A stretch of 64,000 bases of DNA from Galbibacter pacificus. Lineage in GTDB: Bacteria > Bacteroidota > Bacteroidia > Flavobacteriales > Flavobacteriaceae. Shown in pieces: positions 25,083 to 40,083 of this stretch. The notes under the pieces were generated by a model. That model saw nothing but the letters and a program-made list of their open reading frames with translations. It searched no databases and was not told where the DNA came from. The position numbers and the translations under genes were made by a program. The DNA is taken from contig NZ_JAQSVC010000003.1 of the NCBI RefSeq assembly GCF_029603165.1, forward strand, positions 310,001 through 374,000. Direction: 5' to 3'. The stretch's first letter is position 1. Every line of letters starts with the position of its first letter.

Positions 25083-28000
25083 TTAAAAAGAAAATTCAAC
25101 ACCAGTCATAAAAGTTCGCGAAAGCGGATAGGCAACATGGCCAAAATCTACGCCACGGTCTAAAACAGAACCTGTTCTACCCAAATCGGGGTTATACCCT
25201 TTGTAATCGGTTATTGTAAAAATATTGTCCAAGCTTATGTATATCCTACATCGGTTGATTTTTGCCGTACTTAAAACATTCTCCGGTAATGTATACCCAA
25301 ACTGAAGTGTTTTAAACCTAAAATAAGATCCGTCTTCCAGAAAACGATCGGACGTTCTGGAGTTAAGGTTCGGGTCGTTTATTACTGCCCGGGGCATATT
25401 GGTATCCGTATTTGTTGAAGTCCATGCGCTTAAAGTAGTTTTGGCATAATTGTATTCCAAGTTCATCCCTTCCAAATCTTGACGTACCCCATTGTAGATT
25501 TTATTTCCTTGGGTACCTTGAAAAAACAAATTGAGGTCAAAATTTTTATAGGTAAAGCTTCCGCCAAGACCATAAGAAAAATCGGGTGTCGGGCTTCCTA
25601 AAAACTGTCTATCGTCTTCGTCAATTTGTCCATCGTTGTTGTAATCAACAAACCTTATGTCGCCCGGTTGCGCATTGGGTTGGATAAGTTGCCCGTCTTG
25701 TGTATGGGCATTAACTTCTTCTTCTGAATTAAATATTCCATCGGTTTTTATAAGATAGAACGACCCCACCGGAAACCCTGCTTGTGTTACCGTGGCAGAA
25801 GCGCCATGGTGGGTGGGTTGTCCGCCAAATATTTGCTGGGATCCCGTACCTAGAAAATCCACTTCATTATCTACTGAGGCCAGTGTTCCAGTAATTTCAT
25901 ATGAAAAATCGTTGCCAGAATTTCTGTAGGTAAGCGATGTTTCAAAGCCTTTGTTGGTTATCTGCCCGGCATTTATGTATGGGCTGTTTGAGCTCGCTCC
26001 TGTGGAAAGCGGAATGGGCACTTGCAACAGTACATCGGAATTTTCTTTTACAAAATAATCAAAAATGAAATTCAATTTTCTTTCGAAAAAGCTAAGGTCC
26101 GTCCCCACATTAAATGTTTTAGAGGTCTCCCATTTAATATCTGGCGTTGCAAAAGCAGTTTGAATAGCTCCGGGCCACAATGTTTGGCCTTGCCCTGTAA
26201 CATAATTGGCATTGAGGCTTATGGCCGGGCTGTATCGATAATCGTCGAATTCCTGATTTCCCAGCACCCCATAACTCAACCTTAATTTCGCCGTATTTAC
26301 CGTTTCTTTTATATTTTCAAAAAAAGGCTCGTTCGAAATGTTCCAGGCAAAGGCCAAGGAAGGAAAGTTACCATATTGATTATCCGACCCAAAGCGGGAC
26401 GAGCCATCACGCCTAATAATTCCCGTAAGGATATATCTATCTGCAAATGAATATGTTAATCGACCCAAATAAGATACCAAGGCGTTTTCCCAAGCGTTGC
26501 TTCCGGCAGCTGCATTTACGGTTCCTGCATCCAGTACTTTAACCCCGGGCGGCATTCCGCTTTTTGAACCCGTAAGCCCTCTATATGAAGTGTTTTGATA
26601 GGTATAGCCCACTAAGGCATCTATTTTATGTTCACCAAAAGTTTTTTTGTAGTTTAATGTGTTTTCGGTTAGTACATAATCATTTTCATACCTTGTCTCG
26701 GTTAAATCGGCATCCAAATTTGTAAACAGGGCACCCACTTCATACGGGTAGGTATATTGGTAATTATACCCTTCTGTACTGGTATAGCCCAAATTCAATT
26801 TATATTTAAGTCCTTCTATAATATCGACTTCAGCAAAAGCATTTATAATGGCTTTTTTAACATGGTCTTCGGGTATTCTAAGATTGAGCTGGGCCACTGG
26901 GTTTGCAATATCTACAACAGGCCCATAAGCCCCTCCGTAACCTCCTACCGCATCTGGGTTGTACACATCAAAAACGGGAATCATTTTTGGGGCAGACCCA
27001 ACGGCATTTCCACCTTGACCACCAAGTCCTTCGGGCCGTCGCCAATATTCTTTTGACAGAATTACAGATTCGCCTAATTTAAATCTTCCTTTGGTCAACG
27101 TAGACTTTAAACGTAGGTTCCATCGGTTATAACCTGTTTCTTTTACAATTCCTTCTTGGTCGATATAGCCCCCTGAAACGCTGTACGTATAGTTTTCGCC
27201 ACCACCGCTTGCAGACAAATTATAGTTTTGTATGGGGGCTGTTCTATAAATTTCGTCCTGCCAATTGGTACCTTCCCCCAAAGATTCTGGGTTATTGGCC
27301 AAATCCAACCTTGCCAAGCCTGCATTATCGTGCGCGGCGTTACTAACAGTTGCCCATTCTGAAGCATTTAACACTTCTTGTTTGTTTATGATATTTTGAA
27401 ATCCGTAGTAGGTACTAAAGTCAATTACATTTTCTCCACTCCTTCCAGATTTCGTAGTAATGATAACAACGCCATTTGCGGCCCTAGAACCATAAATTGC
27501 AGCAGCTGAAGCATCTTTAAGTATATCCATTGAAGATATATCGGTAGGGTTAAGGTTATTGATGTTGTCTACTTGAACCCCGTCTACAATATACAACGGG
27601 TTGTTATTACCCAACGAGCCCGTACCCCTTATTAATATTCTTACTCCAGAACCCGGATTTCCACCTGAAGATTCCACCTGAACCCCCGGCACACGCCCTT
27701 GAAGCGCTTTTTCTACAGTTGCGGAACCCTGCGTTACAATATCGTCTGATTTAACAGAAGACATTGCCCCAGTTACTTCTTCCCTGGTTTGTGTACCATA
27801 ACCAATAACCACCACTTCATCGAGCGCGGCCGCACTTTCTTGAATGGTTATTTTTAGGTTGGCCTGCCCATCAACCGGTACTTCTTTAGTAGTAAAACCA
27901 ATATACGAAACTACCAATGTGGCATTTTGACCGGATAGGGAAAGGGTAAAATTTCCATCAAAATCGGTTTGGGATCCATTAGAAGTCCCTTTTTCTAAAA

Positions 28001-28469
28001 TATTGGCACCGGGCAAGGGCGTCCCCATTTCATCAAGGACCTGTCCAGAAACTTGAAATTGCTGACTTTCTTTCAGGAAGGCTTCATGATCTATTTTATC
28101 CTCTTGTTTCGCTTTTTTTAGCAGTATTTTCCTGTCGAGTATCTCATAGTCTACCGAATAATCCTTAAAAACATTTTCCAGCACCTTGTTTATAGATGCT
28201 TTTTTAAGCGCTATTGAAATTTCCCTGTTAAGGTCTACTTCTTCTGTGTTGAATATAAACTTAAACTCGGTTGTGGTCTCAATTTGATCAATAACGGCCC
28301 CAACTGTACTATTTTGAAGGTTGAGCGTTATTTTGGTCTTTTGAGAATACGATGTGTTGGCCTGCAATGTAAAGATCATTGCAAAAACAAACAAAATGGA
28401 TAATTTCATTTTTAAGTCGAGGTTATAACTCCATGGATCGAAAACCCATAGCTTTAATCGTTTTTTCAT
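25083..28469 (-). CDS. SusC/RagA TonB-dependent outer-membrane transporter with STN domain
   Basis: This 1128-residue outer-membrane importer is probably for oligosaccharides or glycosides. In order it has: an N-terminal extension, a signal peptide (about 21-43), an STN signalling domain (about 50-120), a carboxypeptidase-like beta-sandwich (about 138-210), the plug (about 220-345, with VVVIGYGTQTREEVTGAMSS and NNPLYIVDGVQV) and a 22-strand barrel ending in an aromatic residue (GVEFSF). The STN domain is the part that contacts FecR-type anti-sigma factors, and fecR lies directly upstream. This gene and susD are co-directional and close, as usual for the pair. Confidence 0.96.
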   Translation of the reverse strand: MKKRLKLWVFDPWSYNLDLKMKLSILFVFAMIFTLQANTSYSQKTKITLNLQNSTVGAVIDQIETTTEFKFIFNTEEVDLNREISIALKKASINKVLENVFKDYSVDYEILDRKILLKKAKQEDKIDHEAFLKESQQFQVSGQVLDEMGTPLPGANILEKGTSNGSQTDFDGNFTLSLSGQNATLVVSYIGFTTKEVPVDGQANLKITIQESAAALDEVVVIGYGTQTREEVTGAMSSVKSDDIVTQGSATVEKALQGRVPGVQVESSGGNPGSGVRILIRGTGSLGNNNPLYIVDGVQVDNINNLNPTDISSMDILKDASAAAIYGSRAANGVVIITTKSGRSGENVIDFSTYYGFQNIINKQEVLNASEWATVSNAAHDNAGLARLDLANNPESLGEGTNWQDEIYRTAPIQNYNLSASGGGENYTYSVSGGYIDQEGIVKETGYNRWNLRLKSTLTKGRFKLGESVILSKEYWRRPEGLGGQGGNAVGSAPKMIPVFDVYNPDAVGGYGGAYGPVVDIANPVAQLNLRIPEDHVKKAIINAFAEVDIIEGLKYKLNLGYTSTEGYNYQYTYPYEVGALFTNLDADLTETRYENDYVLTENTLNYKKTFGEHKIDALVGYTYQNTSYRGLTGSKSGMPPGVKVLDAGTVNAAAGSNAWENALVSYLGRLTYSFADRYILTGIIRRDGSSRFGSDNQYGNFPSLAFAWNISNEPFFENIKETVNTAKLRLSYGVLGNQEFDDYRYSPAISLNANYVTGQGQTLWPGAIQTAFATPDIKWETSKTFNVGTDLSFFERKLNFIFDYFVKENSDVLLQVPIPLSTGASSNSPYINAGQITNKGFETSLTYRNSGNDFSYEITGTLASVDNEVDFLGTGSQQIFGGQPTHHGASATVTQAGFPVGSFYLIKTDGIFNSEEEVNAHTQDGQLIQPNAQPGDIRFVDYNNDGQIDEDDRQFLGSPTPDFSYGLGGSFTYKNFDLNLFFQGTQGNKIYNGVRQDLEGMNLEYNYAKTTLSAWTSTNTDTNMPRAVINDPNLNSRTSDRFLEDGSYFRFKTLQFGYTLPENVLSTAKINRCRIYISLDNIFTITDYKGYNPDLGRTGSVLDRGVDFGHVAYPLSRTFMTGVEFSF

Positions 28470-37727: not shown

Positions 37728-39629
37728 ATGAGTGACGCTATTAAACACGAATGTGGAATTGCCCTAGTAAGGCTATTAAAACCATTGGAATACTACAAAG
37801 AAAAATACGGGAGTGCATTTTATGGCATCAATAAAATGTACCTCATGATGGAAAAGCAGCACAACAGGGGGCAAGACGGTGCAGGTTTTGCCAGCATAAA
37901 GTTAAATATGCAAGCCGGGGAACGCTACATGAGCAGGGTACGCTCCAATCAAGCCCAGCCCATTCAAGACATCTTTAACCAAATAAATGGGCGTATTAAC
38001 GAAGAATTAAAAGAGTACCCCGAATACAACGACAGCATCGAATTGCAAAAACGGAATATTCCGTATATCGGGGAGCTTATGCTGGGGCATGTGCGCTATG
38101 GTACTTTTGGCAAAAATAGTATTGAAAGCGTCCATCCGTTTTTAAGGCAAAACAATTGGATGCACAGAAACTTAATTGTTGCCGGAAATTTCAACATGAC
38201 CAATGTAAACGAGCTTTTCTCCAATCTTATCCGTTTGGGCCAGCATCCAAAAGAAAAAGCCGATACCATTACCGTAATGGAAAAAATAGGACATTTTTTA
38301 GATGATGCCGTTTCCAAGCTATACAAGCAAATAAAAAAGGAAGGATATACCAAAATGGAGGCTTCTCCAATTATTGCAGAAAGGCTTAACGTTGCCAAAA
38401 TATTAAGGAAGGCCGCAAAAAATTTCGATGGTGGTTACGCTATGGCCGGACTTTTAGGACATGGGGATGCTTTTGTGCTTCGGGATCCAGCGGGAATACG
38501 CCCTACTTACTATTACCAAGATGATGAAGTGGTTGTGGTTGCTTCAGAAAGACCTGTAATTCAAACCGTTTTTAATGTCGATATTGAAAACGTACATGAA
38601 CTGGACCCCGGAAAGGCCCTTATCATAAAAAAAGACGGTTCCGTAAAAGCAAAAAAAATATTAGAGCCTCTTGAGCGTAAAGCCTGTTCTTTTGAGCGTA
38701 TTTATTTTTCCCGCGGAAGCGATGCAGAAATATATCAGGAAAGAAAGAACTTGGGAAGACTATTATTGCCTAAAATACTCAAGACCATTGATGATGATAT
38801 AGAGAATACTGTTTTCTCATACATCCCAAATACGGCCGAAACTTCCTTTTACGGAATGGTAAAACAGGCCCAGGACTTTTTAAACGATAAAAAAGAGCAG
38901 GAAATATTGCAGGAAGGGGCATCGCTTACAAGTGAACGCCTTCATGAAATCCTGTCCAAAAGGCCACGAATCGAAAAAGTGGCCATAAAAGACGCCAAGC
39001 TCCGCACGTTTATTACCGAAGACAGTAGCCGTGACGATTTGGTAACACATGTTTACGACATTACATACGGATCGGTAAAACCAACAGACAACCTTGTTAT
39101 TATTGATGACAGTATTGTAAGGGGGACCACTTTAAAGAAAAGCATTCTCCGCATTCTCGACAGGTTGCACCCAAAAACAATTATTGTAGTTTCATCTGCT
39201 CCGCAAATACGTTACCCCGATTGCTATGGAATTGATATGGCCCGCATGGAAGACCTTATTGCTTTTAAAGCGGCACTGGCCCTACATGAAGACAGGGGGA
39301 CAAAAGAAGAAATAGTAGAGGCTATTTACAAAAATTGCAAGGATCAAGCTGATTTACCCGATGCTGAAGTAAAAAATGCAGTTCAAGAATTCTATGAACC
39401 ATTTAGCGACGAAGAAATCTCTGAGAAAATTTCCGAACTTTTATGCCCCGAAGGTATTAATGCAAAAGTAAAAATAATATATCAAACGGTTGACAATTTA
39501 CACAAGGCATGCCCCAAAAACCTTGGCGATTGGTATTTTACGGGCAATTACCCAACAGCTGGAGGCAACCGGGTAGTGAACAGAGCCTTTATGAATTTTT
39601 ACGAAGGGGTTACTGGAAGAGCTTATTAA
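37728..39629 (+). CDS. Amidophosphoribosyltransferase, long form
   Basis: This 633-residue glutamine-PRPP amidotransferase catalyses the first step of purine synthesis. The N-terminal nucleophile is Cys 9 in KHECGIALVR, so an eight-residue propeptide must be removed. The glutaminase domain spans about 9-290 (HNRGQDGAGFAS, GHVRYGTFG). The phosphoribosyltransferase domain follows, with the PRPP motif VIIDDSIVRGTT (about 459-470). It is much longer than E. coli PurF (about 505) owing to insertions in both halves. Bacteroidota often carry a second, shorter purF, so the symbol was left blank. Confidence 0.9.
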   Translation: MSDAIKHECGIALVRLLKPLEYYKEKYGSAFYGINKMYLMMEKQHNRGQDGAGFASIKLNMQAGERYMSRVRSNQAQPIQDIFNQINGRINEELKEYPEYNDSIELQKRNIPYIGELMLGHVRYGTFGKNSIESVHPFLRQNNWMHRNLIVAGNFNMTNVNELFSNLIRLGQHPKEKADTITVMEKIGHFLDDAVSKLYKQIKKEGYTKMEASPIIAERLNVAKILRKAAKNFDGGYAMAGLLGHGDAFVLRDPAGIRPTYYYQDDEVVVVASERPVIQTVFNVDIENVHELDPGKALIIKKDGSVKAKKILEPLERKACSFERIYFSRGSDAEIYQERKNLGRLLLPKILKTIDDDIENTVFSYIPNTAETSFYGMVKQAQDFLNDKKEQEILQEGASLTSERLHEILSKRPRIEKVAIKDAKLRTFITEDSSRDDLVTHVYDITYGSVKPTDNLVIIDDSIVRGTTLKKSILRILDRLHPKTIIVVSSAPQIRYPDCYGIDMARMEDLIAFKAALALHEDRGTKEEIVEAIYKNCKDQADLPDAEVKNAVQEFYEPFSDEEISEKISELLCPEGINAKVKIIYQTVDNLHKACPKNLGDWYFTGNYPTAGGNRVVNRAFMNFYEGVTGRAY

Positions 39630-39702: not shown

Positions 39703-39710
39703 TATCTTTG
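39703..39710 (+). promoter_or_regulatory. -7 box of small RNA copy 1
   Basis: TATCTTTG is an exact TAnnTTTG match that ends 5 bases before the repeated segment starts. No good TTTG is seen 19-21 bases upstream. Confidence 0.5.
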
Positions 39711-39715
39711 ACAAT

Positions 39716-39787
39716 ACCATAGCATAAGTAGGTTAAGTTCATGGTAAGATTTGGGGCAAAAAAGGTGGATTTATTTCCACCTTTTTT
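39716..39787 (+). ncRNA. Candidate small RNA, copy 1
   Basis: This 72-base unit has a 47-base segment identical to copy 2, starting 5 bases after a -7 box. It ends in a 12-bp perfect terminator stem (39758-39769 with 39776-39787) and a T run. At the 5' end ACCAT can pair with ATGGT (39741-39745) around a 20-base loop. There is no open frame with coding character. It starts 86 bases after the purF-like stop. Its identity with any Rfam family is unknown to me. Confidence 0.65.
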
Positions 39788-39889
39788 ATTTTATACCAAT
39801 CCTCAATTAGAATCAAAATTTCCTTCGATTTAAAATTTAAAACAGCATCTTTCACTTTAACTAAAAAACGTGCATTACAACCAATTGAT

Positions 39890-39920
39890 TTTGTCGTAAA
39901 TGCACCTCAACATATATTCG
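39890..39920 (+). promoter_or_regulatory. Promoter of small RNA copy 2
   Basis: TTTG (39890-39893), 19 bases, then TATATTCG (39913-39920) match the TTTG-N19-TAnnTTTG pattern with one mismatch. The box ends 4 bases before the repeated segment. Confidence 0.65.
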
Positions 39921-39924
39921 CATC

Positions 39925-39995
39925 ACCATAGCATAAGTAGGTTAAGTTCATGGTAAGATTTGGGGCAAAAAGGGCGGATTAATTCCGCCCTTTTT
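39925..39995 (+). ncRNA. Candidate small RNA, copy 2
   Basis: This 71-base unit shares a 47-base identical 5' segment with copy 1, 209 bases upstream. Its terminator stem is also 12 bp (39967-39978 with 39984-39995). Two base pairs differ from copy 1, and both changes keep pairing (A-U to G-C and U-A to C-G). This points to a transcript with selected secondary structure. It has a better promoter than copy 1. Confidence 0.68.
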
Positions 39996-40034
39996 ATTTT
40001 TAAGCTTTTTTTCTTCAATTGTACCCAAACAAAA

Positions 40035-40055
40035 ACGGCTGCAATTACAGCCGCT
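40035..40055 (-). terminator. Terminator of the exported Gfo/Idh/MocA gene
   Basis: CGGCTG and CAGCCG pair around CAATTA, extended by an A run and a T run. It lies about 30 bases past the stop of the minus-strand gene. Confidence 0.65.
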
Positions 40056-40083
40056 TTTTCAAACATTATTTTACAATATGTCC

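Follow-up and report, generated by a model that had tools for sequence, protein, structure and literature searches.

Tandem candidate small RNAs downstream of purF belong to a conserved predicted RNA family of Flavobacteriaceae

Tandem sibling small RNAs, such as Qrr, LhrC, PrrF and OmrA/B, are known from other groups of bacteria. In Bacteroides, the RNA FopS is encoded in multiple copies with sigma-A-type promoters, and it base-pairs through its seed close to the start codons of susC (PMC11697453). The 85 independent transcripts newly named in a transcriptome study of Flavobacterium psychrophilum include the conserved Rfp11, Rfp13, Rfp15 and Rfp18, of which Rfp18 is described as a small RNA with at least three stem-loops (PMC9723704). 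Flavobacteria are major polysaccharide degraders in sea and soil, and their small-RNA regulation is almost unexplored.

We analysed a 64,000-nt stretch of the Galbibacter pacificus genome (contig NZ_JAQSVC010000003.1, positions 310,001 to 374,000), here called the window, in which an initial annotation had pointed out two candidate small-RNA units 209 bases apart sharing an identical 47-base segment. The window sequence bears out both the spacing and the segment. The direct repeats at 39716–39793 and 39925–40002 are 90% identical across 78 nt and agree in their first 47 nt (ACCATAG...GGGGCAAAAA), the difference lying in the terminator stem. The units and the gene before them are as follows.

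37728–39629, + strand: purF-like amidophosphoribosyltransferase gene, an open reading frame with glutamine amidotransferase domains; constant upstream neighbour of the array
39716–39790, + strand: small RNA copy 1, a predicted transcript of about 75 nt (repeat, relatives, alignment, family search)
39925–39998, + strand: small RNA copy 2, a predicted transcript of about 74 nt (repeat, relatives, alignment, family search)

A search of the same genome found no copies other than these two, and of 99 relatives searched at the DNA level 50 gave matches, with E values down to 2e-33, which together exclude chance. When the whole units were folded, comparison with dinucleotide shuffles gave z-scores of −4.1 and −4.4, chiefly from the terminator.

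The family is far larger than the pair in the window alone could reveal. A covariance model built from 86 copies detected the family in 312 of the 397 Flavobacteriaceae genomes sampled, representing 193 of 237 genera, answering the proposal in the initial annotation that copies be sought across flavobacterial genomes. All 50 positive genomes of an order-level sample are Flavobacteriaceae, as are the carriers named from their purF loci: Galbibacter, Maribacter, Zobellia, Allomuricauda, Arenibacter, Salegentibacter, Winogradskyella, Kordia and others. The family, its conservation, promoters, terminators and synteny can be read directly from sequence comparison.

Promoter elements precede both units in the window.

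39703–39710, + strand: −7 box of copy 1, TATCTTTG, with 5 nt between it and the conserved start; position conserved across copies
39890–39893, + strand: TTTG of copy 2 as its −33 element, with a spacing of exactly 19 nt to the −7 box that follows
39913–39920, + strand: −7 box of copy 2, TATATTCG, 4 nt before the conserved start; position conserved across copies

The −7 boxes were thus found where they had been claimed, 4–5 bases ahead of the conserved segment, as was the TTTG at the 19-base spacing in copy 2. When 5 or more of the 6 scored positions must agree, a TAnnTT[TA]G-like box is found in 237 of 244 copies, at a distance of 4 nt (207 copies), 5 nt (29) or 8 nt (1) from the conserved start, while a control scan shifted 15 nt upstream finds a box anywhere in only 17 of the 244. 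In F. psychrophilum the sigma-A box has been published as TAnnTTTG at −12 to −5 (PMC9723704); by that spacing, transcription would begin with the first conserved base or one adjacent to it. The arrangement described in the initial annotation, with the box 4–5 nt ahead of the conserved part, recurs in 236 of the 244 copies.

The 244 copies fall into three classes by the end of the linker and the upstream DNA. GGGGC copies are mostly first in the array, and their upstream DNA is barely conserved apart from the box. GGGGA copies are mostly middle copies and carry AAAAC-TTTT around −42 to −33. GGGAYG copies are the last ones in 52 of 52 cases, and have a conserved spacer, TTATTTCnCACAATACCAG. In many genera this spacer has a TTT-rich −33 region on one side and the −7 box on the other; it was noted 45 nt before the last copy in loci L039, L040, L058, L085, L097, L103 and others. 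The spacer may be a regulator site, and the three promoter classes make it a fair inference that the copies are regulated differently.

Each unit ends in a predicted intrinsic terminator.

39758–39787, + strand: intrinsic terminator of copy 1 (repeat comparison, folding); first terminator-like site after purF
39967–39995, + strand: intrinsic terminator of copy 2 (repeat comparison, folding)

The 12-bp stems described at the outset are fully paired at all 12 positions (39758–39769 with 39776–39787, and 39967–39978 with 39984–39995), and the two pairs at which they differ are compensatory, A-U to G-C and U-A to C-G. The covariation extends to relatives. Among 24 last-position copies, picked irrespective of pairing and with one omitted for its shorter loop, 7 of 13 pairs are changed on both sides and 100% of cells are paired; none of 500 shuffles scored as high, and no slid version of the alignment came near. 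Weak opposite-strand model matches at the terminators of L199 and L202 are not separate copies, because the terminator is symmetric. In the window, an extra terminator-like hairpin (ACGGCTGcaattaCAGCCGCTTTTT) was observed at about 40035–40060, in the gap separating copy 2 from the convergent oxidoreductase gene.

In all 79 loci a terminator-like site lies inside copy 1, and just 2 of the 79 have an earlier one after purF, so that the small RNA and the purF mRNA appear to share this terminator; the first predicted terminator after purF is also the one in copy 1. The same counts would suit units that are only tandem terminators or a purF 3′ UTR, with a 5′ part that has no function in trans. We consider this highly improbable, as the stem is the variable part whereas the preceding 31–32 nt are fixed, every copy is preceded by a promoter of its own at a constant distance, and the downstream copies are unneeded for ending purF. 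By far the best reading of the purF-linked units is that they encode RNAs of about 75 nt that are transcribed independently; each copy would have a sigma-A-type promoter and a terminator of its own, with transcription starting at the A/G of RCCATA.

The array lies downstream of purF on the same strand in 79 of 80 purF loci, the exception being a contig that ends at purF. Arrays of the family usually start about 80–130 nt beyond purF. In the 79 named loci the first copy begins 75–161 nt past the purF stop codon, mostly 100–106 nt, and each purF locus holds 1–8 copies at a median spacing of 209 nt. When loci were reached via the RNA itself, purF was in the flank in 93 of 106; a few genomes have additional copies elsewhere. 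The gene beyond the array belongs in 60 of 74 loci to one family, mostly convergent, which from its sequence we take to be Fe/Mn superoxide dismutase. In the Galbibacter lineage and Robertkochia this gene is a GFO/IDH oxidoreductase, as in the window. The gene upstream of purF is conserved in 59 of 74 loci. Because the neighbouring gene order is itself conserved, the linkage to purF need not be functional.

Repetition by itself could also come from a mobile repeat or a short coding gene. The initial annotation had weighed a mobile repeat at random sites lacking conserved promoters, but the copies are fixed beside purF and their promoters are conserved. No copy was found in viral contigs, and matches in phage and plasmid records are partial and mostly to the terminator. 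As for coding, lineages differ by one base in length (GGUAAGAU/GGUAGAU) within the conserved stretch, a difference that would disrupt any conserved reading frame. The chance that either holds is close to negligible.

The part of this RNA before the terminator is predicted to form a hairpin followed by a linker.

39716–39745, + strand: 5′ hairpin of copy 1, ACCAT/ATGGT with weak inner pairs and apical loop GUAGG (folding)
39746–39757, + strand: unpaired conserved linker of copy 1, AAGATTTGGGGC (alignment, folding)
39925–39954, + strand: 5′ hairpin of copy 2 (folding)
39955–39966, + strand: unpaired conserved linker of copy 2, AAGATTTGGGGC (alignment, folding)

A core of 31–32 nt is unchanged in 240 of 244 copies from the 79 named purF loci, a conservation somewhat favoured by the gathering of copies by similarity to the pair in the window. 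The unpaired linker, AAGAUUUGGGG, is conserved about as well as the loop region. In diverged copies UAGGUU...AUGGUA(A)GAUUUGGGG persists longest, apart from a few exceptions. Strongly diverged copies include L265, L271 and L273: one has its loop replaced, one is a second copy beside a better-conserved copy, and the third is a G+C-rich paralogue (GTAGGTGGCCAGTGGCTAGATTGGGG) near purF.

Regarding the 5′ hairpin, the ACCAT/ATGGT stem named in the initial annotation is predicted by folding, but its 20-base loop is not, since inner pairs leave GUAGG as the apical loop. The alignment contains one-sided changes only and gives the hairpin no covariation support, and the 5′ part folded alone is not better than shuffles (z −0.7). 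In diverged copies the 5′ arm is altered and the 3′ arm constant, with a hairpin still possible in most by folding. Our interpretation is that the 3′ arm, loop and linker are constrained and that the 5′ arm just pairs with them.

By the anatomy of the RNA, regulation in trans is its most likely role; its transcription, base pairing and targets are what we infer. The RNAs would act as redundant sibling regulators, pairing with mRNAs via the near-invariant UAGGUUAAGUUYAUGGUA(A)GAUUUGGGG, that is, the apical loop, the 3′ arm of the hairpin and the linker. How much RNA is made, and under which conditions, would depend on copy number and on the three promoter types tied to position in the array.

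Start regions were considered as targets, as in FopS, because AAAUCUUACC-AUG-AACUUAACC complements the conserved stretch. Target prediction covered roughly a tenth of the genome plus the SusC genes; the genome has 47 SusC-type genes above the curated cut-off, and one for an outer membrane transporter of this type lies in the window at 25086–28055 on the − strand. In this one genome, 41 SusC start regions were not predicted to be better targets than 367 other genes (p 0.97 on energy, 0.08 on z-score), and 33 of 150 shuffles were as good. A cruder SusC test with a small background had given p 0.016, which was not upheld against the 367 genes. For the start-codon-register pattern, the same genome has no near-match at a gene start, and 299 genomes gave 22 matches versus 10 for a reversed-pattern control, with no recurring gene start. 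Another candidate, sdhB, was raised by a helix scan and rejected, since the start regions of 30 orthologues vary freely from genus to genus and several carriers match poorly. The core favours start regions slightly over the interiors of genes (2 of 150 shuffles as low by the mean, 70 of 150 by the best 5%), which is partly expected from its CAU motifs. The initial annotation had suggested that the loop could bind targets; SusC genes, sdhB and start-codon-register matches gave no target class.

The lack of a target class in the SusC, start-register and sdhB tests would also agree with an RNA that mainly binds a protein or the ribosome, as a decoy like CsrB/RsmZ or 6S RNA, with copy number titrating the factor. 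The many tandem copies fit such a role, as does invariance that spans the loop, 3′ arm and linker together. Still, the core has no CsrA-type GGA motif, its apical loop being GUAGG(U), no candidate protein was identified, and in F. psychrophilum the 6S RNA is already known as a distinct RNA (PMC9723704). A decoy is unlikely in our judgement, though the most probable of the rivals.

Searching both units against Rfam, as had been suggested, gave no family at gathering score; the only match in the window was a tRNA elsewhere. At a relaxed threshold nothing was significant, the best sub-threshold hit being sraA with 34.7 of 56 bits. Membership in FopS (RF04319) was rejected, as copy 2 scored 18.4 bits and copy 1 scored 17.4 against a gathering score of 56. 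The RNA could nevertheless be a homologue of Bacteroides FopS/GibS, blocking the translation starts of surface transporters, since both are multicopy with sigma-A-type promoters and share a UUCAUGGUA--AGAUUU stretch. However, the FopS likeness is weak; with p about 0.025 in a shuffle test of the window copy, it is not significant in two diverged copies tested against the same FopS (p 0.36–0.45). In the predictions for one genome SusC starts are not enriched, and a class-wide search found no FopS match in any Flavobacteriaceae genome that it covered. Nor was an RRM-1 partner of the RbpB type found, as a PF00076 search of the Galbibacter genome was empty and a control Bacteroides positive. We therefore hold homology with FopS/GibS to be quite improbable. 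Sub-threshold FopS-like RNAs with 37–44 bits were seen outside the families with strong matches, at L192 (G076:C1:2970447) and L193–L195 (G762, G958). One of them is from another family of the order to which the window belongs, and those in G958 begin ATTTTTTTCATAGATTTGG and GATTTCTTCATAG.

Taking these rivals into account, we think it likely that the purF-linked units represent an unannotated family of noncoding RNAs of about 75 nt, made as separate transcription units and acting in trans as sibling regulators. No Hfq was found in the Galbibacter genome either, so that together with the empty RRM-1 search no known RNA chaperone was identified. A broader proposal, which we offer tentatively, is that the RNA is an ancient, near-invariant and undescribed hub present in most genera of Flavobacteriaceae. 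A conserved partner, either a protein or the ribosome, or else many mRNAs might keep its core of about 30 nt constant, with no detectable Hfq or RRM-1, and dose and condition might come from array length and the three promoter types.

About four fifths of the sampled genera have this nearly unchanged RNA at a single locus, which offers one deletable gene set and one probe for many laboratory strains. The RNA could reveal how base-pairing or protein-binding RNAs work in flavobacteria, no usual chaperone having been found in the genome, and the alignment of copies could found a new Rfam family.

Our literature search found no paper naming the purF-linked flavobacterial RNA. A much-sampled genus that carries it (g151) is presumably Flavobacterium, and hence one of the F. 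psychrophilum Rfp transcripts of Guerin et al. 2021 may be its homologue. The copy of one species may thus have been detected earlier without the family being recognised. Rfp18, compared by description only, comes from the same bacterial family and has at least three stem-loops, versus two in the purF-linked unit.

FopS/GibS of Bacteroides are likewise multicopy Bacteroidota RNAs of about 65–75 nt with sigma-A-type promoters, and the FopS consensus UUCAUGGUAUUAGAUUU has a short stretch in common with UUCAUGGUA--AGAUUU of the flavobacterial RNA. In the latter, this stretch lies partly within a hairpin, and the copies are clustered at purF, whereas those of FopS/GibS are dispersed. Qrr, LhrC, PrrF and OmrA/B differ in sequence and belong to another phylum, and Hfq was not detected in the Galbibacter genome. 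On the other hand, judged by sequence, the flavobacterial locus has the arrangement of tandem siblings, with several near-identical copies each having its own promoter and intrinsic terminator. Like those RNAs, its members are short and combine a conserved 5′ part with a variable terminator stem.
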